Below, one piece after another: positions 889 through 19,126 of a DNA stretch of 64,000 nt; within the stretch, counting starts at the first letter, position 1, and each line of letters starts with the position of its first letter. The notes under the pieces were generated by a model. That model had not been told where the DNA came from. It did not search any database and was given only the letters and a program-made list of their open reading frames with translations. The position numbers and the translations under genes are program-made. The stretch comes from an uncultured Pseudomonadota bacterium (GTDB lineage: Bacteria; Myxococcota_A; UBA796; SXON01): positions 1-64,000 of the forward strand of contig CAIQVJ010000032.1 in assembly GCA_903875225.1 (NCBI GenBank), given 5' to 3'.

Positions 889-1325
889 TGGCAGGCGGCA
901 AGCTCAAGGGCGGCGGCGACGAGCCGATCACCGACATCAACATCGTGCCCCTCGTGGACATCGTGCTCGTGGTGCTCATCATCTTCATGGTCACGGCCAC
1001 GTACATCGTGAAGCCGGCCATCAAGATCGACCTCCCCGATGCCGCTACCGGGGAGAACGTGGAGCCCACCTCGCTCGGGATCAGCGTCGCGGCCGACGGT
1101 CGCCTCATGCTCGACGGCGAGCAGATCACCGAGGCCGCCCTGACAGCCCGCGTGGCCGAGGAGTTCGCGAAGGACAAGAACGTCGTCTGCCTGATCTCGG
1201 GCGACAAGGAAGCCCGCCACGGCGATGTGACGCACATCATCGACGTGGTGAAGGGCCTGGGCGTCACCAAGTTCGCGATCAACATCGACCCGACGAGCAC
1301 GCCCGCCCCCACCGTGCCAGGGTAG
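888..1325 (+). CDS. ExbD/TolR family biopolymer transport protein
   Basis: Partner of the preceding channel protein. The 145-residue sequence has a short cytoplasmic N terminus, the DINIVPLVDIVLVVLIIFM signature with the membrane-buried Asp at residue 24 that carries protons in this family, and then a periplasmic domain of about 100 residues ending with a Pro-rich tail. Its start overlaps the previous stop by one base, and the next gene begins 4 bases downstream, so it sits in one operon. Only one ExbD-like gene is present, whereas the M. xanthus AglRQS motor has two. That favours a classical ExbB-ExbD-TonB role. Confidence 0.92.
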   Translation: MAGGKLKGGGDEPITDINIVPLVDIVLVVLIIFMVTATYIVKPAIKIDLPDAATGENVEPTSLGISVAADGRLMLDGEQITEAALTARVAEEFAKDKNVVCLISGDKEARHGDVTHIIDVVKGLGVTKFAINIDPTSTPAPTVPG

Positions 1326-1329
1326 GCCG

Positions 1330-2058
1330 GTGAGCTCGATCTCCCCGTTCCACAGCACGCCGCGCTGGCAGCAGGCCCTGCGCAGCACCGCGGGGGTGCT
1401 GTCGATCGGGTTTCACGCGCTGCTCGCGCTGCTGTTCGTGGTGAACCCGGAGCCGGCGAAGAAGGCCGCCCAGTGGGTCCAGGTGCAGGTGGAGAAGAAG
1501 GCGCCAGAACCACCGAAGCCCGAGCCGCCGAAGCCCGAGCCCCCCAAGGAGAAACCCAAGCCGGTGAAGTTCAAGGACATCCCCCCCGTTCCCGCGCCCC
1601 CTCCGCCCGACGTCGCACCCACCCCGGCGCCGCCGCGGCGCGTGCAGGGCCTCTCCGCGAACAGCTTCTCGAACAGCGGCTCCGGGCTCTCGGTGCGGGC
1701 GGGCAACACCACCGACGTCGCGGCTTCAGGCAAGGGCCTCTCGCTCGACGAGGCGAACGGCCCTCGCGCCTGGGCAGCCGTCACCACGCGGCCGAAGATG
1801 AGCCTGCGGCCGGTGTTCGAGGCACCGGAGGCGGCGCAGAAGGCGAACGTGGAGGGCACCGTGGAGGTACGCCTGGACATCGACGAGCACGGCGTCGTCA
1901 CGAGCGCGAAGGTGGTCTCCAAGCCGCTCGGCTACGGCATCGAGGAGGCGTGCATCGCAGCATGGCGGCTCGCGAAGTGGAAGCCCGCGATGCAGGACGG
2001 GGTGGCCGTGGCCGTGACCGGCATGCCCCAATACTGCACGGTCACGGCAAACCCGTGA
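1330..2058 (+). CDS. tonB: TonB family energy transducer
   Basis: Transmits energy from ExbB-ExbD to outer-membrane receptors. The 242-residue protein has an N-terminal membrane anchor at about residues 20-38, a Pro/Glu/Lys-rich periplasmic spacer with repeated EPPKP units at about 55-105, and a TonB C-terminal domain at about 155-242 (VEGTVEVRLDIDEHG...). The start is GTG at 1330, four bases after the ExbD stop. Its stop overlaps the GTG start of the receptor gene. This tight packing suggests a dedicated transporter system rather than a general TonB. Confidence 0.88.
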   Translation: MSSISPFHSTPRWQQALRSTAGVLSIGFHALLALLFVVNPEPAKKAAQWVQVQVEKKAPEPPKPEPPKPEPPKEKPKPVKFKDIPPVPAPPPPDVAPTPAPPRRVQGLSANSFSNSGSGLSVRAGNTTDVAASGKGLSLDEANGPRAWAAVTTRPKMSLRPVFEAPEAAQKANVEGTVEVRLDIDEHGVVTSAKVVSKPLGYGIEEACIAAWRLAKWKPAMQDGVAVAVTGMPQYCTVTANP

Positions 2059-4724: not shown

Positions 4725-5643
4725 CAATGCTTCGGCGCGACGCGGGCTGCTCCTCGCCACCCTGCTCCCGGCGCTCGGCGCGTGCGACAGCCTCGGACTG
4801 TCGCAGTCCTTCCAGATCGATCGCCTGCGCATCCTGGCCATCGCCGCAGAGCCCGCGGAGCCCCAACCGGGTGACACGGTCTCGTTCACCTCCCTGGTGG
4901 TCTCCCCGGTCGCCACGGTCGGACTGACGACGTGGTTCGCATGCGACATCTCCGATGGCTACGGCTGCACCCTCGACACGGAGCTGCTCTCGAGCCTCAC
5001 CGGCGACACCTCGAACCTCACGCCTGACGAACTCGCCGCATTGTTCGCCCAGCTTCAGGAAGCCGGCATGATCGGGGTGCAGCCGTATTTCGAGCCTTCC
5101 TGGACGGTCCCCGACGACTACCTGGACGCCCTCACCGACGACCAGAAGCTCGAAGGCACCACCGCGATCGTGACGGTGAGCGCGATCCCCACGGTGGAGG
5201 GCGACTCGGGCACGCTTGACACGGCGGTCGAGGACGTCGAGGTCGCGTACAAGCGCGTGCCTGTCAGCCTCGCGACCACCCCGAACCGCAACCCGCTGGT
5301 CACCGGTCTCACCATCGACGGCGTCGCGATCACCCCCGGCGCCACGGTCACGCTCACCCGCGGCCAGACCTACGCCATCGAGTGCGAGCTCGCAGACGAC
5401 GCGATCGAAGACTACACCTTCGTCGACGACGCGGGCGTCGCCGAGACCCGCACCGAAGAGCCCTACTTCGCATGGTACCTGCAAGAAGGAAGCTTCGACC
5501 AGTCCAATACGCTCTGGCCCTACCATGCGGTGGAGTACACGGCGCCGAGCGATGCCACGATGACAGAGCAGTCCCTGTGGGTCGTCGTGCGGGATCGTCG
5601 CGGTGGAATGGGCTGGATCGAGCAGAAGCTCATCCTGCAGTGA
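4714..5643 (+). CDS. Predicted lipoprotein of the TonB operon
   Basis: A 309-residue predicted lipoprotein of unknown function. The start TTG at 4714 is inferred: it overlaps the end of the receptor gene by 11 bases and places a lipobox (LGAC, Cys 24) after a hydrophobic stretch with two arginines in front. The remainder is Ile/Val/Thr-rich and acidic, as in secreted beta-sandwich proteins, and contains cysteines (CDISDGYGC) likely to form disulfides. Being last in the exbB-exbD-tonB-receptor operon suggests a surface or periplasmic substrate-binding partner of the receptor, but this is inference. I do not recognise a family. Confidence 0.75.
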   Translation: MSSSNASARRGLLLATLLPALGACDSLGLSQSFQIDRLRILAIAAEPAEPQPGDTVSFTSLVVSPVATVGLTTWFACDISDGYGCTLDTELLSSLTGDTSNLTPDELAALFAQLQEAGMIGVQPYFEPSWTVPDDYLDALTDDQKLEGTTAIVTVSAIPTVEGDSGTLDTAVEDVEVAYKRVPVSLATTPNRNPLVTGLTIDGVAITPGATVTLTRGQTYAIECELADDAIEDYTFVDDAGVAETRTEEPYFAWYLQEGSFDQSNTLWPYHAVEYTAPSDATMTEQSLWVVVRDRRGGMGWIEQKLILQ

Positions 5644-5647
5644 AGCC

Positions 5648-6079
5648 CTACTTCGTCTTCGGGGCCACCACGAAGGGCTCCGAGGTCACGCTGCCCATCT
5701 GCTCACAGATGGCGGTCGTGAGCGGGAAGCCGGGCGCGCACCCGGTCCCCCAGGTGAGGATCACGCGGTAGGCACCGGAGCCGGAGGCAGGGCCCGGGAT
5801 GGAGAACGCGAGATCCCCGTCCAACTGCGTGGCCGGGACCTGGGAGTCGCACACCTTCACCGCGGTGGTGAGCCACTTTCCGCCCGTCTTGCGCTCGATC
5901 TCGAGCGGCGCACAGCCGTCGATGAACACCGGTCCATCGACGGTTTCGTGCACGCCGAAGGCGATGGCCTGCCCTTCCTCCGGAGGCGTGGCGGGGATCT
6001 CGATCTGCACGGGGCCGGTCTGCGACGCGGCGGCCGCCCGATGGACGAGAAGGATCAGAGCGGGCAAAGAGAGCGTCAC
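5648..6079 (-). CDS. Secreted hypothetical protein
   Basis: A 143-residue protein starting at GTG on the minus strand, with a probable signal peptide (LSLPALILLVHRAAAAS). The mature part has four cysteines and a pattern (PPEEGQAIAFGV... LEIERKTGGKW... YRVILTWGTGC) that resembles the small Ig-like secreted domains common in bacterial hypothetical proteins. It converges with the lipoprotein gene, four bases away, and diverges from the gene at 6174. Function unknown. Confidence 0.65.
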   Translation of the reverse strand: MTLSLPALILLVHRAAAASQTGPVQIEIPATPPEEGQAIAFGVHETVDGPVFIDGCAPLEIERKTGGKWLTTAVKVCDSQVPATQLDGDLAFSIPGPASGSGAYRVILTWGTGCAPGFPLTTAICEQMGSVTSEPFVVAPKTK

Positions 6080-6104
6080 GAATCCACGACTAACCCCGCG
6101 GCCG

Positions 6105-6113
6105 TGCTATGGT
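6105..6113 (+). promoter_or_regulatory. Candidate extended -10 element upstream of the Glt/Nfs-like operon
   Basis: TGCTATGGT reads as an extended -10 (TGn followed by TATGGT), 60 bases before the ATG at 6174 in a 94-base divergent intergenic region. No convincing -35 hexamer is visible at the right distance, so this is a weak call. Confidence 0.3.
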
Positions 6114-6173
6114 GCGCTGCCGCGCGCCTTGTGGCGCGGATTCTTGCTGACGGAGCCCCCGGAGAAAGCCCTG

Positions 6174-7055
6174 ATGAACATGCTGGCCCGCCTGAAACGA
6201 CGCTCCCCTCTCACGCTGCTCGCCTCCCTCGCCCCCCTGTTGGGCCTGATGGCTGCGCTGCTTCCCGCCCAGGCGCACGCGGGAGACACACACCCGGCCA
6301 CGCAGGCCCTCGACGAGCTGCAGGGCAAGAAAGCCCAGCTCTCGGTCATCCAGAACAAGTTCTTCGTCAAGTCGAACCGGTTCGAGATCGCCCCGATGGT
6401 CGGCTACGTCCCGAACAACTCGTTCGTCTCCAGTCCGGTCGGTGGGGCGTTCCTGGCCTACCACTTCTCCGAGACGTTCGCGGCAGAGGGCAGCATCCTC
6501 TACGGGCCGAACACGGGCGATGGCGGCATCAAGAACCTCACGCAAACGCTCGTCGGCATCGCCTACGAGGGCGACGAGCAGACCACGTTCAAGCAGCCGC
6601 TCGACCGCATCCAGCTCGGGGCCATCTTCGATGCGCGGCTCGCGCCGGTGTACGGCAAGATCAACCTGCTCGGCGAGGGCGTGTTGAACTTCGACTTCTA
6701 CGGCACCGCGGGGCTCGGCCTCCTGCTGATCACCAAGGACTACGCGATCGTGAACCCGGAGTACGTGAACGGGAACGACCCGGGGCACCCCGCCACGAGC
6801 GCGACAGACCCCACGACCGCCGCGAACGTCGCCGTGAACCTCGGCGTCGGCTTCGACTTCTTCCTCACGCAGAGCATCGCGCTGAAGATCGACGCACGCA
6901 GCCTGCTCTACGTCGCGAAGGAGCCCGACTACGGCAACAAGCTGGCCAACGGTCAACCCGTCGACCTGAACAGCCGGCTCTACAACTCGTTCATCACCAC
7001 CGCCGGTGTTTCGATCTTCGTGCCGAAGATGAAGCCGCGCCTCTCCAACTTCTAA
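6174..7055 (+). CDS. Outer-membrane beta-barrel protein, Glt/Nfs (GltA/NfsA) type
   Basis: Predicted outer-membrane barrel of 293 residues, probably the outer anchor of the envelope-spanning complex encoded downstream. The start ATG at 6174 has a GGAGAAAG Shine-Dalgarno sequence 6 bases upstream and gives a signal peptide cleaved after AQAHA (near residue 36). The mature part begins with a short helical stretch (LDELQGKKAQLSVIQNKFF), then alternating beta-strands typical of the myxobacterial outer_membrane beta-barrel domain family. The next gene encodes a related barrel. In M. xanthus, paired barrels of this type (NfsA/NfsB, GltA/GltB) head comparable clusters. The family call is from memory. 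Confidence 0.75.
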   Translation: MNMLARLKRRSPLTLLASLAPLLGLMAALLPAQAHAGDTHPATQALDELQGKKAQLSVIQNKFFVKSNRFEIAPMVGYVPNNSFVSSPVGGAFLAYHFSETFAAEGSILYGPNTGDGGIKNLTQTLVGIAYEGDEQTTFKQPLDRIQLGAIFDARLAPVYGKINLLGEGVLNFDFYGTAGLGLLLITKDYAIVNPEYVNGNDPGHPATSATDPTTAANVAVNLGVGFDFFLTQSIALKIDARSLLYVAKEPDYGNKLANGQPVDLNSRLYNSFITTAGVSIFVPKMKPRLSNF

Positions 7056-7062
7056 GCAGACG

Positions 7063-7980
7063 GTGGCCACCCCCATGATGTTGCTCGCTCTCTCTCTCGC
7101 TGCGCTGCCTGCCCAGGCTTCGACGACCGACCCGGTCGTGGAGGCCCCAGCGGCGTCTGCCCCTGTCACCGTGCACTACCTCGCAAGTGATGCCGTCGCC
7201 GACGACACCCCGACCGACACGTCCTCGGACGACACCGACGACCAGGACGAGAGCTCGGTGAAGTCCGAGAAGGACGACGTCAAGTCCGGCCGCGCCGATG
7301 CGAAGAAGGCGGACGAGGACGACCTCACCAAGAAGTCCAAGAAGCGCGTCATCAAGGTCATCCAGAAGAAGACCTTCATGAAGATCGGACGGTACGAAGT
7401 GGGTCCCGAGATCGGGTTCGTCACGAACGACCCCTTCCTCAACCGCTACGTGATCGGGGCGACGCTCGACTACCACATCACCGAGATCTTCGCTGCGGAA
7501 GTGCAGATCAACTACTCGCCGATCCTCGGGTCCGGCGGAGAGAACGATCCGGACTGGAAGGCACTCTCCAAGCAGCTCCTGCTCGAGAACAGCGTCTCGC
7601 CCGACATCTCCAAGCTCGACGCGATGGGCTCTGCCGCGCTCTCGTTCTCCCCGATCTACGGAAAGGCCGCAGTCGGCCGGAAGATCATCGCGTTCGACAT
7701 GTACGGCGCGTTCGGGTTGGGCGTGGTTCACACGGCAGACGACCCGAAGGCCCTCCAGGTGGACTCGGGGGACGAGCACTTCGTCGGCAGCGACCAGGAA
7801 TGGCACCCGACCACGGTCATCTCGGGCGGCGCACGCGTTGCGTTCGGCGAGAGCATCGCCGCCCGCATCGAGGGCAAGTCGATGTCGTACATCGAGACCA
7901 TCAACAGCACCACCCTCGAGATGAAGAACAACTTCATCCTGCAGGGCGGCGTGACCTTCTTCTTCCCCTCCATGAAGTGA
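7063..7980 (+). CDS. Outer-membrane beta-barrel protein, Glt/Nfs (GltB/NfsB) type
   Basis: A 305-residue paralogue of the preceding barrel, starting at GTG 7063 (an in-frame ATG at 7075 is possible) with a signal peptide ending AQAS. A strongly charged segment of Asp/Glu/Lys follows at about residues 45-95, then the shared motif (VIKVIQKKTFMKIGRYEVGP) and a beta-barrel ending FFFPSMK. The shared sequence is KFF/KTF plus an R(F/Y)E(I/V) strand seen in both proteins. The charged linker is absent from the first barrel and may interact with peptidoglycan or the periplasmic TPR partners. It is the second gene of the operon, seven bases after the first. Confidence 0.75.
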   Translation: MATPMMLLALSLAALPAQASTTDPVVEAPAASAPVTVHYLASDAVADDTPTDTSSDDTDDQDESSVKSEKDDVKSGRADAKKADEDDLTKKSKKRVIKVIQKKTFMKIGRYEVGPEIGFVTNDPFLNRYVIGATLDYHITEIFAAEVQINYSPILGSGGENDPDWKALSKQLLLENSVSPDISKLDAMGSAALSFSPIYGKAAVGRKIIAFDMYGAFGLGVVHTADDPKALQVDSGDEHFVGSDQEWHPTTVISGGARVAFGESIAARIEGKSMSYIETINSTTLEMKNNFILQGGVTFFFPSMK

Positions 7981-7990
7981 GCTGACGGCG

Positions 7991-9853
7991 ATGAAAAGCG
8001 TTTCCATCACCCGGTTTTTCCTGCCCGCTTCCGTAGCGCTCACCCTTGCGCTCCTCGGCGCACGCCCCGCCTTCGCGCTCTCGTGCGACGAGCTGATGAA
8101 CATGGTGGACGTCTCCGTACCCACCGACATCATCGTGCAAACGGTGCAGGGTTCGGGCGAGACGTTCTCCGCAGCGGAGGTCAAGTGCCTCCAGGACAAG
8201 GGCGCGCCCGCAGAGGTCGTCGCCGCAGCCAAGGGCATGATGGCGGCTCCCGCGGAGGATGACCAGCCCACCACCGCCACCCCGACCGCCAGGCCGACGC
8301 CGAAGGACACCTTCGACAGCGACGAGGGCATCGGCGACAAGCAGGCCAAGAAGACCGAACTGCAGGACAAGGGCGGGGACGAGGACGACACGACGAGGGA
8401 CCCGGAGAAGCTCGACAGCGCGATCAAGGCCTACGAGGCCAAGAAGCCGCTCACCGCGAGCCTCGCCTTCTTCCAGATGCTCCAGGACAACCAGTTTCCC
8501 GACAAGGAAGCCAAGATCCAGTACTACCTGGCGCGGTCGCTCTACGACCTCCAGATGTACCACTCGGCGCAGTACTACTTCACCGAGGTCATCAAGAAGG
8601 GCCCGAGCACGCCCTACTTCTCCAAGGCGCTGCCCAAGCTGGTGACCATCGCGAAGTACACCGGCGACGACTCGGACCTCGCGAAGATCGTGGCGAAGGT
8701 GCCCGCAGAGGAGTTCCCGGCCTCCGCGCGCAACCAGTACTACTACCTCGCCGGCCTGCGGCTCTATGAGCAGGACAAGCTCACGGACGCCCGCAAGAGC
8801 TTCGCCCAGGTGTCCGAGAAGTCGGACCTCTACTCGAAGTCGAAGTACTTCGAGGGCGTGATCTACTACAAGCAGGAGAAGCTCCGCTCCGCGGTGAAGA
8901 GCTTCACCGAGGTCGTGAAGTCCAACCCCGACGCCACGACCGCACAGGAGATCGACGCGAGCAAGCGCCTGCGGGACCTCTCGCTGCTCAACATCGCGCG
9001 CATCTACTACAGCATCCAGCGCTACCCCGAGGCCAACACCTGGTACGACAACGTGCCGCGTGACAGCCGCTACTGGGCCGAGGCCCAGTTCGAGAGCGGG
9101 TGGGCGGACTTCGTCACCTCGGACGTCAACCGCACGCTCGGGCAGATGCTCACGGTCCAGAGCCCCTTCTTCGACAAGGAGGAGTTCATCCCCGAGGCGA
9201 AGATCCTCCGGGCGCTGACCTTCTTCAACCTGTGCGAGTACAAGGAGGTCGACAAGACGCTCGCGTCGTTCGACCAGACGTACAAGCCCATGCAGGAAGA
9301 GATGAAGGACTTCCTCAAGCAGTACACCGGTGACAACTCGAAGCTCTCCGACCAGGCGTACGACCGCTACTTCGGCGCCAAGCCGGACAAGACCCTCATC
9401 CCCAAGTCCGCGTTCGTGCGGATGCTGCGAAACCAGGATCTTGCGGGCATCGTGAGCCACCTTCAGGTCATGGACAGCGAAGAGAAGCTGATCGATGAAC
9501 AGAAGAGCCAGTGGAAGGACAGCCTGGGCGAGAACCTGCACAAGGTGATCGCGGAGGACCGCGACCGGCTCAAGCGTCGCGCCGGCGTCTACCTGCTGAA
9601 GGAGATGAGCGGCATGGCGACGATGCTGGGCGGCCTGCTCGGGCAGTCGCAGATCATCAACTTCGAGAAAACGGACGCCATCCGCGGCGACTACCAGTAC
9701 AAGCTCACCTCGCAGGACGTTCAGGACACCTCCAAGGAGTTCCAGATCGATTTCGCGACATCTCCCGACCGGATCTTCTGGCCGTTCAACGGCGAGTTCT
9801 GGCAGGACGAGCTCGGGTACTACTGGTACACCGAACAAGGCAACTGCAAGTAA
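7991..9853 (+). CDS. Periplasmic TPR protein, GltC/NfsC-like
   Basis: A 620-residue exported protein with a clean signal peptide (cleavage after RPAFA, near residue 29). A short conserved-looking domain with Cys (LSCDELMNMVDVSVP) comes first, then an acidic low-complexity linker at about 85-140, then TPR-like helical pairs from about 140 to 480 (YYLARSLYDLQMYHSAQYYF and similar), and an alpha/beta C terminus with a final Cys. It is third in the operon after two beta-barrels, the position of nfsC in M. xanthus; GltC there is a periplasmic TPR protein. Homology is inferred from architecture and order, not from an alignment. Confidence 0.68.
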   Translation: MKSVSITRFFLPASVALTLALLGARPAFALSCDELMNMVDVSVPTDIIVQTVQGSGETFSAAEVKCLQDKGAPAEVVAAAKGMMAAPAEDDQPTTATPTARPTPKDTFDSDEGIGDKQAKKTELQDKGGDEDDTTRDPEKLDSAIKAYEAKKPLTASLAFFQMLQDNQFPDKEAKIQYYLARSLYDLQMYHSAQYYFTEVIKKGPSTPYFSKALPKLVTIAKYTGDDSDLAKIVAKVPAEEFPASARNQYYYLAGLRLYEQDKLTDARKSFAQVSEKSDLYSKSKYFEGVIYYKQEKLRSAVKSFTEVVKSNPDATTAQEIDASKRLRDLSLLNIARIYYSIQRYPEANTWYDNVPRDSRYWAEAQFESGWADFVTSDVNRTLGQMLTVQSPFFDKEEFIPEAKILRALTFFNLCEYKEVDKTLASFDQTYKPMQEEMKDFLKQYTGDNSKLSDQAYDRYFGAKPDKTLIPKSAFVRMLRNQDLAGIVSHLQVMDSEEKLIDEQKSQWKDSLGENLHKVIAEDRDRLKRRAGVYLLKEMSGMATMLGGLLGQSQIINFEKTDAIRGDYQYKLTSQDVQDTSKEFQIDFATSPDRIFWPFNGEFWQDELGYYWYTEQGNCK

Positions 9854-9954
9854 GCCTGCCAAGGCAACCCTTTCGCGGCGATCCCAGGTTCATTCCGACG
9901 ATTACCCGCCCACCCCCCGCCACTGGCGTACCCCGCCTTCCCCTGGAAACGTAG

Positions 9955-12900
9955 ATGTCCATCTCCGTACCTTCTGATCTCAACGTCGCGACCCTGCTTC
10001 GTCGCGCCGCACGCATGGGCTTCGTGCTCGCGCTCGCTCTGGCCGTCGCGCCGCTGAACCCAGCACACGCCGCTGACACCGAGCGCCGTCGCTTGTCTGC
10101 CACGGACCTCTCCGTGCAGGACCAGCAGACCGCCGAGCTCCGCGCCAAGGCACACGAGGCCCGGCTGGCCTCGATCGACCAGCTCAAGGCCCTGCTCAAG
10201 GACTTCCAGGGCCCGCCCGACCAGAAGGCCGAGCTGATCCTGCGCCTGGCGGACCTCTACTTCGACGAGGGCCGAGACCTCTACCTCGACGAGATGAAGG
10301 CCTGCAACGCCGAGATCGACAAGGTGTTCAACGCCGGCGGTGCTCCGGACACCGTCGACTGCAAGACCTACACCACGGGCTCACGGCAGTGGCAGGACCG
10401 GTCCATCAAGCTGTACCAGCAGATCCTGTCGAACTACCCGCAGTTCTCGCGTGCGGACGAGGCGACCTTCTTCCTCGCCAGCGCGTACAACGACACGGAT
10501 CAGAAGGATCTCGCCGCCCAGGAGTTCACCCGTCTGGTCAAGCAGTACCCCGACTCCACCTACGTCAGCGACTCGTACGTGCAGATCGGCGAGTACTACT
10601 TCGAGGAGAAGTCCGACGCGAACAAGGCCATGCTCGCGTACAAGAAGGCAGCGAGCAACAAGACTTTCGACAAGTACCCCTTCGCGATGTACAAGCTCGC
10701 GTGGTGCTACTACAACCTGGGTGAGTTCGGCACCGCCATCAGCACGATGAAGGTGGTCGTGAGCTACTCGGACTCGACGAGCGGCGGCAAGAGCAACATC
10801 CAGCTCCAGGAAGAGGCCCTGAAGGACCTGGTCCGCTTCTTCGCCGACGGCGGGGACATGGACGAGGCCATCGCCTACTTCAACCAGATCGGCAAGAAGC
10901 AGATGATCCCCGAGCTCCTCAAGAAGCTCGCCGGGACCTACGTCGAGCAGGGGAAGTTCGACCTCGCCATCGAGATGTACCGCCGGCTCATCACCGAGAG
11001 CCCGAGCGCTCCGGTGTCTGCGGACTTCCAGAACGAGATCATCACCGCCTACACCAAGATGGGCAAGAAGGAGGAGACCCTTCAGGAGATCGATCGACTG
11101 CGCACGACCTACGGGAAGCAGTCGTCCTGGGCCCGCGCCAACGCCTCCAACCAGGACGCCGTCAAGAACGCCGGCGACATGATCGAGAAGGCGCTTCGCA
11201 CCGTCGCGACCAACTACCACAACGAGGCGAAGAAGCTGGGTACCGGCTCCGGCGCGGTCAAGGTCTACGGCCTCGCCGAGCAGGCGTACCGCACCTACCT
11301 CCAGGAGTTCCCCACCGGGCAGTACACGTACGAGATGCGGTACTCCTTCGCCGAGCTTCTGTACAAGGTCAAGAAGTTCGACGAGGCGTACGACCAGTAC
11401 ATGCAGGTCGTGGCGATCGATCCGAAGGGCCAGCACTCCGAGTTCTGCGCTTCTTCCTCGATCTTTGCTGCTGACGAGATGATCAAGAAGGAGAAGAAGA
11501 CGCTCACTGCCGGTGGGCCCGATCCCGGCAGCAAGACAGAGCAGCCCCTCACCGAGTGGGAAGGCAAGTCGCTCAAGGCGCTCGACCAGTACGCGCAGTT
11601 GTTCCCCACGGATCCCAAGGTCCGGAACATCATCTACAAGTCGGCGTACCTCCTCAACGGCCGAAACCACTTCAAGGAGGCCTCCGATCGGTTCAACGTC
11701 GTCATCAAGATGGACCCTTCCTCCAAGGAAGCGGAGCAGGCGGCAAACTTGATCCTGGACGACTTCAACCTCGTCGAGGACTGGGACAACCTCAAGTCGA
11801 ACGCCAAGCTGTACTACGACCAGGCTGGTCTGGGAGACGCCGACTTCAAGAAGGGCGTGTTCACGATCTACGAGAACTCTTCGCTCAAGCTCATCGAGGT
11901 CAACTTCAAGAAGACCGGCGACAAGGCGAAGGGCGCGGCGGACTACCAGGCGTTCTACAAGGAATTCCCGCAGTCGACCAACGCCGATCTCGCGCTCAAC
12001 AACGCAACCGTCTACCTGCACGACCTCGGCCGCGCCACGGAGGGCGTGCCGCTGCGGCTCGAGCTCATCAACAAGTTCCCCAAGTCCAAGTACTACAAGG
12101 ACCAGGTCGCCGCCCTCGGCTACGACTACGAGTCCGAGGCGGACTTTGCGGACGCCGCGAACTGGTACGAGAAGCTCTTCACCCTCGACCAGAAGCACCC
12201 CGGATCGGCAGACGCGATCTACTCCGCGGCCCTGTTCCGCGGGGCGCTCGGCCAGTGGGAGGTGTCCATCAAGGACTACCAGGCCTACATGCTTGCGTAC
12301 CCCGACAAGCCAGGGCTGAACGCGCTGCAGTTGGGCATCGCCAAGACCTACGAGCAGCAGGGCAAGTACCCTGAGGCATCCAAGATCTACCTGAACTTCT
12401 TCACGCCGCCCAAGAGCGCACCCAAGCTCGCCCCCGGCGCGGTCGCCCCGACCCCGCCCACGCTCGACGAGCTCATGTTCGCTCGCCTGCGCTACGGCCT
12501 CTTGATGGACAAGCTCGGTCAGGGAGCGAACGTCACCAAGCACTGGCAGGAGACGCTCGCGTTCTTCGACAAGTCGAGCGCGGCCCCCAAGGGGGGGACG
12601 GCGCCTGCATACGAGCTGTCGCACGAGTACGTCGGGCAGATCAAGTACATCCTCGCAGAGCCCGAATTCAAGAAGTTCGTGACGATGCGCATCAACGGCC
12701 CGACCAGCAAGGTGAGCCAGAAGGTCGAGGACAAGACCTATACCGAGCAGCTGCTCGGCAAGGCGAAGGCGCTCGTCGCCATCGAGAAGACCTACACCGA
12801 CGTCCTCAACACGGGCGCCGGCGAATGGGGTCTGGCCTCGCTCGTCAAGCTCGGTCAGGTCTACGAGGACATGGCCGACACCTTCACCACCTCGAAGTGC

Positions 12901-13170
12901 CCGAGCTACCTCACCGCAGACCAGTGCGAGATCTACAGCGCGCAGATCGGCGACAAGGCGTTCCCGCAGATCGAAAAGGCCGTCGCGACCTACTCCGAAG
13001 CCCTGAAGAAGGCCTACGAGCTGAACCTGTACAACGACAACACCGCCTACGCGACACGCCAACTCGGCGTGCTGCGGCCCCTCGACTACCCTCCTCTCTA
13101 CGAGATCGTCCCCCAGAACCGCTTCACCGCCCCCGCGGTGACCACCGCGTCCTTCGAGACCGAGCCGTAG
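9955..13170 (+). CDS. Large periplasmic TPR protein, GltD/NfsD-like
   Basis: A 1071-residue exported protein. The start ATG at 9955 has a GGAAA about 6 bases upstream and yields a signal peptide cleaved after PAHA (near residue 39). The mature protein is almost entirely TPR-like: repeated motifs such as ADEATFFLASAYNDTDQKDL and FAMYKLAWCYYNLGEF occur through the whole length, first as coiled helices (KAHEARLASIDQLKALLKDF) and later as long-period repeats. Such solenoids usually scaffold protein complexes. In the M. xanthus gliding and spore-coat systems the equivalent protein (GltD/NfsD) is the largest periplasmic component and precedes the TPR lipoprotein, as here. Confidence 0.72.
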   Translation: MSISVPSDLNVATLLRRAARMGFVLALALAVAPLNPAHAADTERRRLSATDLSVQDQQTAELRAKAHEARLASIDQLKALLKDFQGPPDQKAELILRLADLYFDEGRDLYLDEMKACNAEIDKVFNAGGAPDTVDCKTYTTGSRQWQDRSIKLYQQILSNYPQFSRADEATFFLASAYNDTDQKDLAAQEFTRLVKQYPDSTYVSDSYVQIGEYYFEEKSDANKAMLAYKKAASNKTFDKYPFAMYKLAWCYYNLGEFGTAISTMKVVVSYSDSTSGGKSNIQLQEEALKDLVRFFADGGDMDEAIAYFNQIGKKQMIPELLKKLAGTYVEQGKFDLAIEMYRRLITESPSAPVSADFQNEIITAYTKMGKKEETLQEIDRLRTTYGKQSSWARANASNQDAVKNAGDMIEKALRTVATNYHNEAKKLGTGSGAVKVYGLAEQAYRTYLQEFPTGQYTYEMRYSFAELLYKVKKFDEAYDQYMQVVAIDPKGQHSEFCASSSIFAADEMIKKEKKTLTAGGPDPGSKTEQPLTEWEGKSLKALDQYAQLFPTDPKVRNIIYKSAYLLNGRNHFKEASDRFNVVIKMDPSSKEAEQAANLILDDFNLVEDWDNLKSNAKLYYDQAGLGDADFKKGVFTIYENSSLKLIEVNFKKTGDKAKGAADYQAFYKEFPQSTNADLALNNATVYLHDLGRATEGVPLRLELINKFPKSKYYKDQVAALGYDYESEADFADAANWYEKLFTLDQKHPGSADAIYSAALFRGALGQWEVSIKDYQAYMLAYPDKPGLNALQLGIAKTYEQQGKYPEASKIYLNFFTPPKSAPKLAPGAVAPTPPTLDELMFARLRYGLLMDKLGQGANVTKHWQETLAFFDKSSAAPKGGTAPAYELSHEYVGQIKYILAEPEFKKFVTMRINGPTSKVSQKVEDKTYTEQLLGKAKALVAIEKTYTDVLNTGAGEWGLASLVKLGQVYEDMADTFTTSKCPSYLTADQCEIYSAQIGDKAFPQIEKAVATYSEALKKAYELNLYNDNTAYATRQLGVLRPLDYPPLYEIVPQNRFTAPAVTTASFETEP

Positions 13171-13185
13171 GCCAAAGGAACCACC

Positions 13186-14679
13186 ATGAACCGCACCATC
13201 CCCTCCCTCCTGATCCTGCTCGCGGCGTTCGGTCCTGTCGCGCTCACCGGTTGTGGTGAGCCGAAGGTCGTCCAACCGACCGTCGATTCCGCCAACGTGA
13301 ACCCCAAGCAGGCGTACACCCAGGGCGTCGACCTGCTCAAGGGCGACACGCCGAACTATGCAGGCGCGCTCGCGCTTTTCGAGTCAGCCACCACGCAGGA
13401 CCCGAACTTCACCAAGGCCTGGTTCAACGCCGGCTGGGCTGCCGAGCGCACCGGCGACTATGCCAAGGCGGAGCAGTACTACAAGCGGGCGCTCGAGCAG
13501 AAGCCCGACTACACCCAGGCCCTGTTCAACCTGGGCAACGTGCTCGTGGAAGGCAACAAGGCGACCGAAGCCACCGGGATCTACAAGGCGTACGTGGAGA
13601 GCCACCCCGAGGATCTCGTGGCCAAGAACAACTACGCGGACGCGCTGGTGGGCGCCCAGTCGTACGCGGAGGCCGTCGCGACCGCCCAGGACATCCTCGG
13701 GCGCGACCCGAAGAACGTCTCGGCCTACCGCAACCTCTCGCGCACCTACTATGCGCAGGGCAACTACGAGATGAGCATCCTGTGCGCGGAGAAGGCCAAG
13801 ACGCTCTCCGACACGGACCCCGGCATCTACAACAACATGGGCGTGACCTACCTCGCCCAGAAGAACGCCCCTGCGGCCATCGAGCAGTTCAAGACCGCGA
13901 TCAAGCTCGACCCCGCGAACGTCGAGGCCAACCTCAACCTCGGCTACCTCGCAGCGGACTCGGGCGACTTCGCGCTGGCGAAGCAGACCTTCGAGTCGGT
14001 CGTGCGCCAGTACCCCGGCAACATGGACGGCCAGCTCGGCTACGCCATCGCGCTTCGCGGCATGAAGGACAACGACGGCGCCCAGAAGGCCTACGAGTCG
14101 CTGCTCAAGAACAATCCGACCAACCGCACGGTGGTGAAGAACGCCATCACCTTCAACATGAAGTACGCGAAGGACTTCAAGACCGCGCAGAAGATCGTCG
14201 ACGACTTCAAGAAGGCGATGACCGGCCAGCTTTCCCCGACCGATGAGATCTTCACGCTGGAGACCGACATCAAGAAGGAGCAGGCTGCCGAAGACAAGCG
14301 GGTCGCGGACGCCGCCGCAGCGGAAAAGGAAGAGAAGGAGCGCAAGGAGCGCGGCGAGAAGAAGCTCAAGGAGCTCGGCGACGCCGTGGCGGGCATCGAG
14401 AAGGACCTCAAGGATTGCCCCACCCTGGCCCCGGACGTCCTCGAGCTCATCCAGATGACCCTGGAGCAGGTCAAGCCCGTTCTCGACGAGAAGGACTACA
14501 GCCTCGCCGGCGACGTCGAGCCCTTCATCCTGGACGCCCGCTCCCAGTTGGACGCGGCGAAGACGGGCGGGCAGTGTGGAGCAGCCGCGGCGCCAGCCGA
14601 GGCCCCCGCGCCAGCCGGGGCCCCCGCGCCCACCGAGCCGGCGCCCGCTACACCCGCTCCCACGCCGACCCCCGGCTGA
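13186..14679 (+). CDS. TPR lipoprotein, GltE/NfsE-like
   Basis: A 497-residue lipoprotein with a clear lipobox (LTGC, Cys 23). Canonical TPR units run from about 45 to 330 (AWFNAGWAAERTGDYAKAEQ, GIYNNMGVTYLAQKNAPAAI). A highly charged coiled-coil follows at about 355-400, then an Ala/Pro-rich tail from about 465. It begins 15 bases after the GltD-like gene with an AAAGGA Shine-Dalgarno sequence, so it belongs to the same operon. The outer-membrane TPR lipoprotein GltE/NfsE is the expected neighbour in the M. xanthus order. A strong hairpin follows the stop. Confidence 0.75.
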   Translation: MNRTIPSLLILLAAFGPVALTGCGEPKVVQPTVDSANVNPKQAYTQGVDLLKGDTPNYAGALALFESATTQDPNFTKAWFNAGWAAERTGDYAKAEQYYKRALEQKPDYTQALFNLGNVLVEGNKATEATGIYKAYVESHPEDLVAKNNYADALVGAQSYAEAVATAQDILGRDPKNVSAYRNLSRTYYAQGNYEMSILCAEKAKTLSDTDPGIYNNMGVTYLAQKNAPAAIEQFKTAIKLDPANVEANLNLGYLAADSGDFALAKQTFESVVRQYPGNMDGQLGYAIALRGMKDNDGAQKAYESLLKNNPTNRTVVKNAITFNMKYAKDFKTAQKIVDDFKKAMTGQLSPTDEIFTLETDIKKEQAAEDKRVADAAAAEKEEKERKERGEKKLKELGDAVAGIEKDLKDCPTLAPDVLELIQMTLEQVKPVLDEKDYSLAGDVEPFILDARSQLDAAKTGGQCGAAAAPAEAPAPAGAPAPTEPAPATPAPTPTPG

Positions 14680-14691
14680 TCGAATCGGCCC

Positions 14692-14747
14692 ACCCGAGCC
14701 GCCGAGACGTCGTCACCCCCAGGCGGCTCGGCGGCTCGGGTCGTTTT
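14692..14747 (+). terminator. Intrinsic terminator after the TPR lipoprotein gene
   Basis: A perfect 15-bp inverted repeat (14692-14706 with 14727-14741) with a 20-base loop is followed by CGTTTTG. It lies 12 bases after the stop of the GltE-like gene and likely ends or attenuates the transcript before the two small genes. Confidence 0.75.
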
Positions 14748-14856
14748 GCGGCCGCGCGTGCAGACCCGCCATTCCCGGACCCCGTCTGGCGGTTCCGGAT
14801 CATTTTGGGAACCCGAGCCGACCCGCGTTGTCCACTGGAGCACACCCGGACTCCCG

Positions 14857-15135
14857 ATGCTGATCTCCCTCGCCAGCTTCCTCCTCACCCCCGCCTTCGC
14901 CGAGCCGGCGGGATCCCCCGTCCCCGAGCTCGTGGACACGCCGGACGGCGCGCACCGCGTGACCTGGAAGCCGGTCACCGAGATCGACATGGGAGAGCTG
15001 AACGTCGAGGGCACGATGTACAAGCCGGAGGGCGTGGTCGTCTCCGAGGCCCGTCACCCCTCACATCCCCCGCAGATTCGCCTCCGCGCCAATTTCGACG
15101 ACCTCACATCCGAATCCGTGGACCTCGTTCGTTGA
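14857..15135 (+). CDS. Small exported protein, GltF/CglF-like paralogue 1
   Basis: A 92-residue protein with a signal peptide (LISLASFLLTPAFA, cleavage near residue 15). The mature part carries the pattern TEIDMGELNVEGTMYKPEG followed by LRANFDDLTSESVDLVR. The gene at 15241 repeats this layout, so the two are tandem paralogues. Position between the GltE-like lipoprotein and the FHA/AgmX-type gene matches the small F component (NfsF/GltF, also named CglF) of M. xanthus clusters; the motif match is from memory. The ATG at 14857 is chosen because it begins the signal peptide; no strong Shine-Dalgarno sequence is seen. Confidence 0.65.
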   Translation: MLISLASFLLTPAFAEPAGSPVPELVDTPDGAHRVTWKPVTEIDMGELNVEGTMYKPEGVVVSEARHPSHPPQIRLRANFDDLTSESVDLVR

Positions 15136-15240
15136 CCCGTCGGTCGCTGCGCGATCTTTTGACGGGAACCTTTCCGTCCCTCGCTTGTCTCAACGCCCCA
15201 AGTCGGCGAAGATAAGCCCGACCTCTCACAGGAGTGCGTC

Positions 15241-15537
15241 ATGTTCCGTTCCCTCACCCGTCTGCTCCCTCTCGCCATTGGGCTCCTCGCGCTCAGTACC
15301 TACGCCCGGCCTGCCCGCGCGGACGATACTGACGAGATCGACGCCGAAAGCGGCCGCAAGATCCAGTACAAGTCCAAGACCGAGATCGATTTCGAAGGTC
15401 TGGACGTGGAAGGCGAGATGGTGAAGCCTTCGAGCGCCCTCGTGCTCGACCGCAAGAAGGCTGCATTCAACCCGCTCATCAAGATGCGGGAGAACTTCAA
15501 CCCCGAGATGGAAGAGTCGATCGACGAAGTCCGCTAG
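15241..15537 (+). CDS. Small exported protein, GltF/CglF-like paralogue 2
   Basis: A 98-residue exported protein with an AGGAG Shine-Dalgarno sequence 7 bases before the ATG and a signal peptide ending ARPARA (near residue 28). The mature protein has TEIDFEGLDVEGEMVKPSS, a basic DRKK step, and LIKMRENFNPEMEESIDEVR. The core VEG-x(2)-(Y/V)KP and the terminal (V/E)R residues align with the 92-residue neighbour. Acidic, helical, without cysteines. Probably a periplasmic adaptor of the same complex. Confidence 0.68.
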   Translation: MFRSLTRLLPLAIGLLALSTYARPARADDTDEIDAESGRKIQYKSKTEIDFEGLDVEGEMVKPSSALVLDRKKAAFNPLIKMRENFNPEMEESIDEVR

Positions 15538-15683
15538 CCCGGCTCGTCGACTCTTCCCGGCCGCGTGGCCGACCGCATCGTCGCTCGACGCGCGTTCGAG
15601 ATCTGTCTGACACTCCTGCTTCTGTCGCCGGTCCCCGGCCCCTCCTCTCTTCGCTTTGATTCAGCGCCCCGAGGTTCACTCCG

Positions 15684-17522
15684 ATGGCTTCCAACTCCCT
15701 CGTCCTCACCTTCGAGATCTTCAACAGCGGCGAGTTCCTCCGCAAGGAAGAGCTCAGCGCCGAGAGCGTCACGATCGGCAAGGGCCCGGCCGCGATGCTC
15801 CGCATCGAGTCCGACGCGCTCTCCGATCTGCACGCAGTCCTGAACGTCAACGAAGACGGCTCCGTGCAGCTGCTGGATCTCGTGGGCGACAACGCGACCA
15901 CCGTGAACGGGCAGGCGGTCAGCAACGTCATCCTCAGCAGCGGCGACACCATCGGCTTCGGCGCCATCCGCGTCGTCGTGCGCATCACGGACGAGGCGGC
16001 GTTCTCGGAAGACGAGGAGAAGACCCGCGTAGACGTCCCTGCGCCCAGTGAGGACGAGACCGACCCCGGCATGGCCGGACAGCCCCATGAGCTGGGCGAG
16101 GACGAGCCCGTAGAGGACGTCATGTCCTTCGTGATGCGCGCTTCCGCCTCAGCGAACGACAGCTCCGCGGACCGTTCCCAGGGCCGCGTGCTCGAGGTGG
16201 CGCAGGTCTTCGGCGACTCCGTCGTGGACATGAAGCTGTTCTCGAAGTCGCAGCGCGTCACGCTCGGCACCGAGGTCATCGGCGTGACGCCCGACGAGAG
16301 CAAGATGAAGCAGGCCTTCTTCGTGCCCGCCGAGCTCCTCCCGCAGCAGAACTACCCGCTGTTCACCTGGGTGGGCAACGGATGGGAAGCGAACGTCCAC
16401 GACAAGTGGGCCGGCTTCGTGGACATCGGCGAGACCCGCTACTCGTTCGACGACCTGGTCACGGCGGGCCGCGCCAAGAAGAACGGGCAGTCCTACGCCG
16501 TGCAGATCGGCGAGGATGCACGCCTCGTCGTCGACCTCGGGTACACGATCTTCGTCGCGCACCAGGTGTTCCCCGGCAAGAAGGCGATCGCCAAGTCCGG
16601 CGACAACATCGACTACCCGCTGCTCGCCATCCTCGGATTCGTGGCGTTCGTCGGGATCATGTTCGGAATCGCGCTCGCCGTCGTGCCGCCCCCGCCTGAG
16701 GACTCCGAGCTCCGCCTCGACCAGCACCTCGTGGACCTGCTCCTCGAGAAGAAGGAAGAGATCAAGGACAAGAAGCCCGACGCCAACCCGGACGCCGGCG
16801 AAGGCGCCAAGGCCAAGAAGGAAGAGGGCAAGGTCGGCAAGAAGGACGCCAAGATGGAGAAGGCCAAGGGCGACAAGGTCCAGCTCCAGAAGCAGCAGTT
16901 GGACCGCGAGATCGCGCAGAACGCCGGTATCCTCGGCGCTCTCCGTGACGACTCCACGCTCGACTCCGCGCTCGGCGCCACCGGCCTGAACGCGAACATG
17001 ATGAACGGCATCGGCGGCCTCATCGGGTCCAAGGGCACCCAGATGGGCTCCGGCGGCCTCGGCGCACGTGGCGGCGGCCTCGGCGGCGGCGGTACGGCAG
17101 ACGGCCTCGGCGGCCTCGGCACGAAGGGCCGTGGGTCCGGCTCGAGCGGCTACGGCTCCGGCGGCGGCCAGTTCGGCTCCAAGGGCGAAGGCGGCATCGG
17201 CAGCGTCGGTGGTGACCCGATCATCCTCGGCGCCCTCGACAAGGCCCTCATCGACGCCGTCATCAAGCGCAACATGGCCTCCATCCGGTACTGCTACCAG
17301 AAGGAGCTCACCAAGAACCCCGCGCTGGGCGGCAAGATCCAGGTCAAGTTCGTCATCGCCAAGGACGGCACGGTGTCTTCGGCCACCACCGGCTCGACCA
17401 CGATGAACAACCCCGCGGTCGAGAGCTGCATCAACGGGCGCTTCCAGAAGTTCCAGTTCCCGGAGCCCAAGGGCGGCGGCATCGTCATCGTCAAGTACCC
17501 GTTCATCTTCTCGCCCGGGTAG
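15684..17522 (+). CDS. FHA-like / AgmX-PglI C-terminal domain membrane protein, GltG/NfsG-like (copy 1)
   Basis: A 612-residue single-span inner-membrane protein. An FHA-like beta-sandwich comes first (about residues 20-105; VTIGKGPAAMLRIESDALSD, then DLHAVL and NATTVNG), a second cytoplasmic beta-rich domain (about 170-300), one membrane span (about 311-331), a Lys/Glu-rich helix, a Gly/Ser-rich linker (about 430-505), and a TonB-like AgmX/PglI C-terminal domain (about 515-612) with the RNMASIRYCYQKEL motif. This is the layout of M. xanthus GltG/NfsG, which links cytoplasmic signals to the periplasm. The start ATG at 15684 has GAGG 9 bases upstream. A terminator follows. Confidence 0.8.
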   Translation: MASNSLVLTFEIFNSGEFLRKEELSAESVTIGKGPAAMLRIESDALSDLHAVLNVNEDGSVQLLDLVGDNATTVNGQAVSNVILSSGDTIGFGAIRVVVRITDEAAFSEDEEKTRVDVPAPSEDETDPGMAGQPHELGEDEPVEDVMSFVMRASASANDSSADRSQGRVLEVAQVFGDSVVDMKLFSKSQRVTLGTEVIGVTPDESKMKQAFFVPAELLPQQNYPLFTWVGNGWEANVHDKWAGFVDIGETRYSFDDLVTAGRAKKNGQSYAVQIGEDARLVVDLGYTIFVAHQVFPGKKAIAKSGDNIDYPLLAILGFVAFVGIMFGIALAVVPPPPEDSELRLDQHLVDLLLEKKEEIKDKKPDANPDAGEGAKAKKEEGKVGKKDAKMEKAKGDKVQLQKQQLDREIAQNAGILGALRDDSTLDSALGATGLNANMMNGIGGLIGSKGTQMGSGGLGARGGGLGGGGTADGLGGLGTKGRGSGSSGYGSGGGQFGSKGEGGIGSVGGDPIILGALDKALIDAVIKRNMASIRYCYQKELTKNPALGGKIQVKFVIAKDGTVSSATTGSTTMNNPAVESCINGRFQKFQFPEPKGGGIVIVKYPFIFSPG

Positions 17523-17540
17523 TCGGTCCCGCGAGTCGAC

Positions 17541-17580
17541 CCGGGCCGGGGGAGCAATCCTCCGGCCCGGTTTCGTTTTG
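17541..17580 (+). terminator. Strong intrinsic terminator with GCAA tetraloop
   Basis: A 13-bp stem (17541-17553 with 17558-17570, one G-T pair) closes on a GCAA loop and is followed by TTTCGTTTTG. The rest of the gene-free stretch to 17791 is GC-rich and shows no other clear element. Confidence 0.85.
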
Positions 17581-17791
17581 GGCGGTGGGTGGCGGCCTGC
17601 GCAAACGGATGTCGCAGGCCATCGCCGCAGCGGGCCGGCCGTTTGCAACGGCGGGAGCCCGACCCGCACGCCCCCGCCCGCGCCTTCACACAAACCCCAC
17701 CCCCCCTTCACGATCCCTTTGCGAACCTCCCGGCCCGGCCGCGGTCCGAGTGTATGTGCCGCTGATCCGGCGCTTCACCCCCGAGGCCCCC

Positions 17792-19126
17792 ATGTACGAC
17801 ATCGATTTCTCCGATCCCGACTGCGATTCCACCAGCCCCGGCGAGAACGCCCTCGCCTTCCTCCTGCGCACCGCGCCGCTGGCAACACCGGCACGGGGCA
17901 CCGCCCGCCAGCTCGAGATCGTCGCGTTCGTCGGCGAGGAGGTCGTCGAGGTGCGCCAGGTCGCGTCGGGCCAGATGCGGGGGTTCACGATCGCGCTCGG
18001 CTGCGACCTCGTGGACCCCACCGCGCCGGACCTGATCCGCACCGGCGCCGACCCGGCGAGCCCGCAGCTGGTTCACGACGGGCGGGGCTGGGTGTTCCTC
18101 CCGACCTTCGACATGGTGGCGTTCGTGGACACCGGGGCCGACGAGCCGGAGCGCCGCGTCGTGACCGGGGAGACCGCGCTCTCGGCCGGGGACCGGCTGC
18201 TGGTCGAGATCGGGCCGGTCATCTACGTCATCCAGGAGGTGCAGCCGTCCAAGCGGGTGCCCGGTGAGGCCCTCGCCATCGACACCCCGATGCTCTCGCT
18301 GTTGAGCTTCCTCGGCATCAGCGCAGGGCTGTTCGGGTACGCGCTGGGGACCGTGCCGCCCCCGCCGGAATCGAACACAATGGGACTCGTCGAGTCGAGC
18401 ATCATGATCGACCTCGCCCGCATCAAGCCCCCGCCGCCCGCGCCGAAGCAGAAGGCGCACACCGAGAGCGTCGGCGCGCACAGCGGCCCGGAGGGGAGGT
18501 CCCACGCGGGGCACCCGAAGCCGCAAGGTCGGCCGAGCGACAAGGACACCGCCATGAACGTTTTCAAGGGGCTCGGGAGCGTGTTCGCGAGCATCGGGGG
18601 CACGGACCTGACTCCTGGGGTGCGCGCGGGCATCATCGGGCTTCAGGGCACCCACACCGGCAACGGGCCGGGGTTCGGCCTGCGTGGGGACGACATCGGC
18701 GGCGGCGGCCACACGGACAGCGTCGGCATCGACCGGCTGAGCACCCGCGGCGAGGGCGACGACCTGGCGACAGGCGGCACCTGGAAGAAGAAGGACGAGG
18801 GCCCGTCTGTCGCGACGGGCGAGGCGATCACCATCGGGGCGCTGGACCCCAGCGAGATCGATCGCGTGATCAAGCGCAACCTCGCGTCGATCCGGTACTG
18901 CTACCAGAAGGAGCTGCAGTCCCACCCCGGAATTGGCGGCAAGGTGAGCGTGAAGTTCACGATCGCGGCCGACGGCAGCGTCTCCTCGGCCACGACCCGC
19001 CCGACCAACCCGATGCCCAGCGTCGAGGCCTGCCTGACCAGCCGGTTCCTGACGCTCCACTTCCCCGAGCCCAAGGGCGGCGGCGTGGTGCTGGTGAGCT
19101 ACCCGTTCGTCTTTTCGCAGGGGTAG
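17792..19126 (+). CDS. AgmX-PglI C-terminal domain membrane protein without FHA domain (GltG-like copy 2)
   Basis: A 444-residue paralogue of the preceding gene. The start ATG at 17792 is chosen because GAGG lies 5-6 bases upstream; the open frame extends further upstream but that part is compositionally non-coding. The protein has the second cytoplasmic beta-domain (about 25-150), one membrane span (about 167-188) followed by PPPPE as in copy 1, a His/Gly-rich linker, and the C-terminal domain (about 345-444) with RNLASIRYCYQKEL and FPEPKGGGVVLVSYPFVF. The FHA domain is missing. Duplication and loss of the phosphopeptide-binding module suggests a specialised or constitutively active partner. 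Confidence 0.8.
   Translation: MYDIDFSDPDCDSTSPGENALAFLLRTAPLATPARGTARQLEIVAFVGEEVVEVRQVASGQMRGFTIALGCDLVDPTAPDLIRTGADPASPQLVHDGRGWVFLPTFDMVAFVDTGADEPERRVVTGETALSAGDRLLVEIGPVIYVIQEVQPSKRVPGEALAIDTPMLSLLSFLGISAGLFGYALGTVPPPPESNTMGLVESSIMIDLARIKPPPPAPKQKAHTESVGAHSGPEGRSHAGHPKPQGRPSDKDTAMNVFKGLGSVFASIGGTDLTPGVRAGIIGLQGTHTGNGPGFGLRGDDIGGGGHTDSVGIDRLSTRGEGDDLATGGTWKKKDEGPSVATGEAITIGALDPSEIDRVIKRNLASIRYCYQKELQSHPGIGGKVSVKFTIAADGSVSSATTRPTNPMPSVEACLTSRFLTLHFPEPKGGGVVLVSYPFVFSQG

Follow-up and report, generated by a model that had tools for sequence, protein, structure and literature searches.

The stretch of DNA analysed here, 64,000 nucleotides from an uncultured Myxococcota bacterium (hereafter the window), takes up the first 64 kb of the 83.4 kb contig C32, and its start coincides with the contig end; the assembly comprises 7.2 Mb and is about 95% complete. 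Between positions 6174 and 19126 it carries nine plus-strand genes in the order A-B-C-D-E-F-F'-G-G', which resemble the envelope machines used by Myxococcus xanthus for gliding (Glt) and for spore-coat assembly (Nfs). A preliminary description, made from the window alone, had proposed such a machine, encoded by nine genes running in one direction over some 13 kb, in a lineage where such a machine was probably uncharacterised. All nine reading frames are indeed present close to where they had been placed, with GC content at third codon positions of 0.82–0.94, as expected of coding sequence, and the lineage belongs to an uncultured class of Myxococcota. Two starts had to be revised: the likely start codons lie at 14857 for F1 and at 17792, rather than 17585, for G2.

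We scored the window proteins with NCBIfam and Pfam profile models against their curated cut-offs. Curated NCBIfam models of the gliding machine match six of the nine genes (C, E, F1, F2, G1 and G2). A (6174–7055, 293 residues) and B (7063–7980, 305 residues) are outer-membrane beta-barrels in the GltA/NfsA and GltB/NfsB positions, and both score above the 60-bit cut-off of TIGR04565 (OMP_myx_plus), the model for myxobacterial outer-membrane barrels, with 95 bits (4.3e-27) and 78 bits (5.6e-22), respectively. These matches bear out the proposed assignment to a Glt/Nfs-like family. C (7991–9853) is a secreted tetratricopeptide repeat (TPR) protein of 620 residues, a GltC homologue rather than an equivalog, whose match to NF033756 (4.2e-88) spans profile positions 48–619. 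D (9955–13170), a TPR protein of 1071 residues that matches TPR and tol_pal_ybgF models, has the size, place and repeats of GltD/NfsD; no curated GltD model matched it, and it is homologous to the proteins found between C and E in other Myxococcota clusters. E (13186–14679, 497 residues) is a TPR lipoprotein with the lipobox LTGC and a homologue of GltE (NF033758, 3.2e-32), for which a generic TPR model scores slightly higher.

Two small secreted proteins follow, F1 (14857–15135, 92 residues; NF033764, 1.2e-5) and F2 (15241–15537, 98 residues; NF033764, 4.2e-14). F2 is a homologue of GltF, the protein also called CglF in the literature, and F1 a diverged extra copy. G1 (15684–17522, 612 residues; NF033760, 9.3e-95) is a GltG homologue consisting of an FHA domain (PF00498, 2.9e-10, above the cut-off), one transmembrane (TM) segment and an AgmX/PglI C-terminal domain, and a search of PDB sequences with it returned FHA domains only. 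G2 (17792–19126, 444 residues) is a second, single-span GltG copy that lacks the FHA domain and matches NF033760 over its C-terminal part (2.6e-46). The AgmX/PglI C-terminal domain (NF033768, cut-off 40 bits) reaches 109 bits in G1 and 92 bits in G2. Between the two genes, at 17541–17570 of the plus strand, lies a terminator-like hairpin of 13 pairs, 11 of them GC, followed by a T-rich tail (TTTCGTTTTG).

Could these be unrelated TPR and barrel genes that merely resemble Glt/Nfs? TPR proteins produce matches to a wide range of families, and for D there is no specific model. Nevertheless, the specific Glt models are matched at 1e-95 to 1e-14, the order is exact and the arrangement is conserved throughout the class, so that we consider this explanation extremely improbable. 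Chance is excluded, because E-values range from 1e-5 to 1e-95 and the order is kept in about 50 loci.

Homologous loci were collected by searching GTDB contigs with the C protein. The search yielded 61 loci. Most come from metagenome bins of freshwater or marine origin that carry the labels Deltaproteobacteria, Proteobacteria or Myxococcota. One locus (L024) represents the window's genus, and two more (L079, strain DTSAM18, and L054, UBA796) its order. Five records of metagenome-assembled genomes (L022, L027, L028, L060 and L066) are titled Bifidobacterium breve or Klebsiella pneumoniae; these titles look wrong, since the records carry the Myxococcota cluster. Synteny profiles were built from the class loci, with receptor and cassette counts taking only loci with room upstream, and flanking-gene counts are based on one gene call per stretch by a simple gene caller that overlooks some real genes.

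The order in the class is ExbB-ExbD-TonB-receptor-lipoprotein-A-B-C-D-E-F-G-H, where H is CglE; in other words, the class layout is the nfsA-H order behind a Ton cassette. In clusters of other Myxococcota families the genes run C-D-E-F-G, and in some cases A and B lie upstream in divergent orientation. The gene order anticipated for relatives of the window is therefore conserved, as A-B-C-D-E-F-G across the class loci and as C-D-E-F-G in other Myxococcota. The extent of the unit was captured only in part: A–G stand as described, but H, which follows G in relatives and lies on contig C120 in the window's genome, and the class-wide Ton cassette had been left out. Our searches of the open-access literature turned up no earlier description of a Ton cassette beside a Glt/Nfs cluster.

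In the window the conserved block begins at 244, upstream of A. It opens with a plus-strand run of four genes that overlap or abut: an ExbB/TolQ-type proton channel subunit (244–888; PF01618, 1.8e-29; best NCBIfam matches tolQ/exbB, under the equivalog cut-offs), an ExbD/TolR-type subunit that has the TM Asp in VPLVDIVLVV (888–1325; PF02472, 2.5e-28), TonB (1330–2058; PF03544, 1.6e-12) and a TonB-dependent receptor (2055–4724). TonB has a single TM segment with the SxxxH motif (SIGFH), a proline-rich linker and a TonB_C domain; its TM His is kept in 25 of the 28 class members with residues at that position. The receptor starts with a TonB_C domain of its own (2.4e-14), CarboxypepD_reg and the plug, as matched by Pfam models, ahead of the barrel. 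A PDB sequence search with it gave no match. Its AlphaFold2 model (pLDDT 77.7) was matched by Foldseek to Fiu, YncD and other receptors with E-values down to 1e-20, so the predicted fold resembles that of siderophore and PQQ receptors, which are nutrient importers. A plus-strand lipoprotein with predicted tandem Ig-like domains follows (4747–5643, with 4693 as another possible start; lipobox ALGAC); it belongs to a class-conserved family, n1, and its AlphaFold2 model (pLDDT 89.5) resembles other tandem-Ig structures in a generic way only, at TM-scores of less than 0.4. A small secreted protein, n3 (5648–6079), is encoded on the minus strand between the two transcription units, and homologues occupy the same place in 20 other loci. 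At one locus, L041, positions 1153–7367 upstream of the cluster hold two receptor genes with a lipoprotein gene between them and no ExbB-ExbD-TonB.

The cassette could be a functional part of the machine, with ExbB-ExbD-TonB as its motor or a second motor and with the receptor and the Ig-like lipoprotein as the outer-membrane client. We consider this unlikely, although several observations speak for it. The receptor adjoins A in 34 of 37 loci; the complete ExbB-ExbD-TonB trio occurs in 27 of 35 loci (27 of 34 without L214, whose edge falls just after TonB); and receptor or Ton genes are absent from all sampled clusters outside the class. In the window's genus, cassette and A–G have moved away from their usual PBP1A, GT2, H and rplC neighbours yet stayed joined. 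Moreover, where ExbB-ExbD-TonB has been lost, the receptor as a rule still lies next to A, which suggests that the cassette may work with the machine. The receptor also has a TonB_C domain of its own. On the other side, the opposite-strand gene between cassette and A implies separate transcription units, and in three genomes A–G (in one of them A–F with H) lie apart from a cassette that is intact elsewhere. Four genomes have the receptor and A–H but no ExbB orthologue, their best matches reaching 33–39% identity, and the receptor's fold is akin to that of nutrient importers. Strain DTSAM18 (contig JARACJ010000001.1, whose record bears no MAG label) is a case of receptor-A-H lacking an ExbB orthologue. 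A Ton-coupled machine of Glt/Nfs type throughout the class, in which ExbB-ExbD-TonB, receptor and Ig-like lipoprotein all act in surface transport, is more doubtful still.

The TonB-type SxxxH motif, through which contact with the motor is made, also enters this argument, since the G proteins of the class lack it while the cassette TonB mostly retains it, as if G depended on the cassette. However, with TM segments located by hydropathy only, SxxxH was found in 26 of 102 sampled GltG loci, all 26 outside the class, in a sample made up mainly of other Myxococcota. Outside the class, too, many GltG proteins thus do without the motif, which weakens its absence as a sign of dependence on the Ton cassette; as most sampled GltG loci lack it, we rest no claim on its absence from class G. 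Among the GltG TM segments of loci L107–L187, about one quarter have a TonB/TolA-like SxxxH and the rest do not.

There is an even chance, in our estimate, that the cassette instead serves independent nutrient uptake and owes its position to nothing more than inheritance, in a part of the genome that rearranges slowly. Its Ton features are canonical, and the usual flanks in the class are conserved too, with PBP1A/GT2 upstream and H, an anchor-D lipoprotein and rplC downstream. Moreover, A–G can sit elsewhere: in two of the three genomes with a separate A–G (L258 and L259) the cassette is joined straight to H, and in L258 on to n7-rplC. Simple inheritance of position sits less well with an association between cassette and A that persists between orders at 35–50% protein identity, with the combined block of the window's genus lying outside the usual neighbourhood, and with retention of the receptor beside A after loss of ExbBD. 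Taken together, the cassette is slightly more likely a neighbour of the machine than a part of it.

The doubling of F and G, already proposed in the preliminary description, is confirmed both by the models (NF033764 matches F1 and F2, NF033760 matches G1 and G2) and by trees. The sequences indicate at least two independent duplications of G in the class: in the G tree, window G2 groups with second copies from its own family (support 95/99), and a second set of extra copies occurs elsewhere in the class, at six loci, five of which have the copy between E and F. All extra copies start at position 137 or later of the NF033760 profile (window G2 at 149) and so have no FHA domain; in G2 this points to loss of the cytoplasmic FHA input. 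The FHA/TonB-like component is thus doubled in the sense that there are two GltG copies, but the second is FHA-less and fast-evolving, and similar copies arose independently elsewhere in the class. All of the extra G copies evolve fast. Compared with L024, G1 is 90% and G2 55–58% identical; the corresponding values are 82–84% for F2 and about 40% for F1. F1 also sits on a long branch in the F tree, for which the alignment is too short to give firm trees.

We infer that G2 and F1 have diverged and have altered partners, rather than supplying an extra dose of G1 and F2. It is improbable, though by no means absurd, that they are decaying duplicates devoid of function: their long branches and low identity to L024 compared with G1 and F2 would fit decay, as would the terminator-like hairpin that sets G2 apart from the operon, but open frames of G2 and F1 are retained in several genomes, and a second clade acquired the FHA-less form independently, with all extra copies starting in the same part of the profile.

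Other putative parts of the machine are encoded elsewhere in the genome. In class loci the gene next to G encodes a CglE-family barrel; among three tested, two pass the 70-bit cut-off and one scores 68. The window genome's own CglE (H) is found on contig C120 (122674–123240; NF033755, 113 bits against the cut-off of 70), unlinked to A–G. From its position after G, we take CglE to be GltH.

The genome encodes nine MotA/TolQ/ExbB proteins, and TolQ-TolR-TolR triplets occur on contigs C19, C27 and C85; no such triplet is linked to the window cluster. The C19 triplet lies in a separate core Agl-Glt run at about 196.5–207.2 kb (G000:C19; L092, L276), which reads C-D-E, an 84-residue protein, TolQ-TolR-TolR and an FHA-less G. 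A C-D-E-TolQ-G run is also carried by DTSAM18. The Agl-Glt core complex of Luciano et al. (2011) comprises seven proteins, GltC, D, E and G with AglR, Q and S; the C19 run corresponds to this complex plus one small gene, and the 84-residue protein may be the product of the extra core gene mentioned by these authors. Compared with the core complex, the window cluster has A, B and F in addition, with H elsewhere. The core run on C19 is followed by a gene for an unassigned 459-residue protein and, further on, by rplC. The C27 triplet (about 60.2–62.6 kb; L098) is preceded by a TonB-like gene; the C85 triplet is L102. In M. xanthus, where Glt and Nfs share AglRQS in trans, GltG is bound by AglR. 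Since one motor serves both systems in trans there, we prefer a trans motor for the window cluster as well.

We next consider how the cluster compares with the two M. xanthus systems. It had been suggested that glt and nfs share this set and order of genes. The order A–G does match nfsA-H, but the M. xanthus glt genes are split over two loci, whereas nfsA-H form one cluster; the window layout is therefore that of nfs. Like Nfs, the window has a single cluster in the order A–G (with H following in relatives), an FHA/TonB-like G, TPR proteins D and E and a small secreted F. Products of the nfs operon, A to H, have 294, 442, 512, 1202, 499, 94, 682 and 200 residues, compared in the window with 293, 305, 620, 1071, 497, 92–98 and 612 (G1) or 444 (G2) for A to G; the agreement is close for A, D, E, F and G1. 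Unlike Nfs, the window has a Ton cassette alongside, doubled F and G and an unlinked H, and the likeness is drawn from layout and lengths. When some 550 genomes from several groups were searched, no GltG exceeded the curated Myxococcus-type cut-off. Curated models tie the window's genome to Glt through homologues of GltC, E, F, G and H (CglE), and the A and B barrels are shared as well; Glt differs in occupying two loci and in possessing GltI, J and K. As Glt and Nfs have been described as recent paralogues, an nfs-type layout does not discriminate between them. In turn, the window has the same ExbB, ExbD, TonB and receptor as an ordinary Ton system, except that its receptor adds an N-terminal TonB_C domain (an MxcH-like start) and adjoins a Glt/Nfs cluster.

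We favour, with a probability of about 0.72, the reading in which A–G, together with H elsewhere in the genome, form an envelope machine of the Agl-Glt/Nfs type, with its motor most likely in trans and the Ton cassette as a class-specific neighbour that may work with it. The sequences themselves show which parts are present, how the genes are ordered and the domains arranged, that the cluster is conserved across the class and how its genes were duplicated. By analogy with M. xanthus, a proton-driven inner-membrane motor of the TolQ/TolR type would act on the single-span, TonB-like G1. G1 would reach across the periplasm, following D, E and C (the TPR proteins) and the small F, as far as the barrels A, B and H in the outer membrane, and surface cargo, either an adhesin (as in gliding) or a polysaccharide (as in coat assembly), would thereby be pushed sideways. 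The motor would most likely be a separate, AglRQS-like TolQ-TolR-TolR set, as in M. xanthus, and G2 and F1 would be diverged versions with other partners.

Several findings weigh against this reading. No window gene reaches the equivalog cut-off of its named Glt model (297 of 450 bits for C, 112 of 225 for E, 52 of 90 for F2 and 318 of 650 for G1), which indicates that the window proteins are divergent homologues outside the Myxococcus-type set and not Glt or Nfs orthologues specifically. The best match to GltJ in the genome, 44 bits against a cut-off of 450, is not convincing and is a mild argument against gliding in the M. xanthus style; Bdellovibrio, on the other hand, reportedly glides although GltH, I, J and K are absent from it. 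In five class loci (L051, L058, L060, L061 and L066) H directly follows F, with no G at the locus, so that the FHA/TonB-like component must be missing there or encoded elsewhere. Finally, the TM segment of no class G protein contains SxxxH.

Two further genes lie outside the cluster. A few kilobases downstream, at 23502–24803 of the window, a predicted lipoprotein combines Big_7 with an L-type (legume) lectin match (6e-19) just under the Pfam gathering score. A lipoprotein-like open reading frame of 154 residues on another contig of the genome (G000:C50, 8883–9347; L093) consists mostly of the AgmX/PglI C-terminal domain (NF033760, 1.7e-32).

While the machine itself is of a known type, its novelty lies in the class-wide association with a Ton cassette and in the recurrent FHA-less G copies. 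Almost all functional knowledge of Agl-Glt/Nfs machines comes from M. xanthus. The presence of A–H as a single cluster across an uncultured sister class means that the compact, nfs-like layout is widespread. The class also offers natural comparisons: A–H with or without a linked Ton cassette, with or without an FHA-less G, and next to a stand-alone core system within a single genome. Should the Ton cassette take part, nutrient-type Ton energisation would be tied to surface transport, a connection for which the TonB-like domains common to GltG and GltJ had already given grounds.

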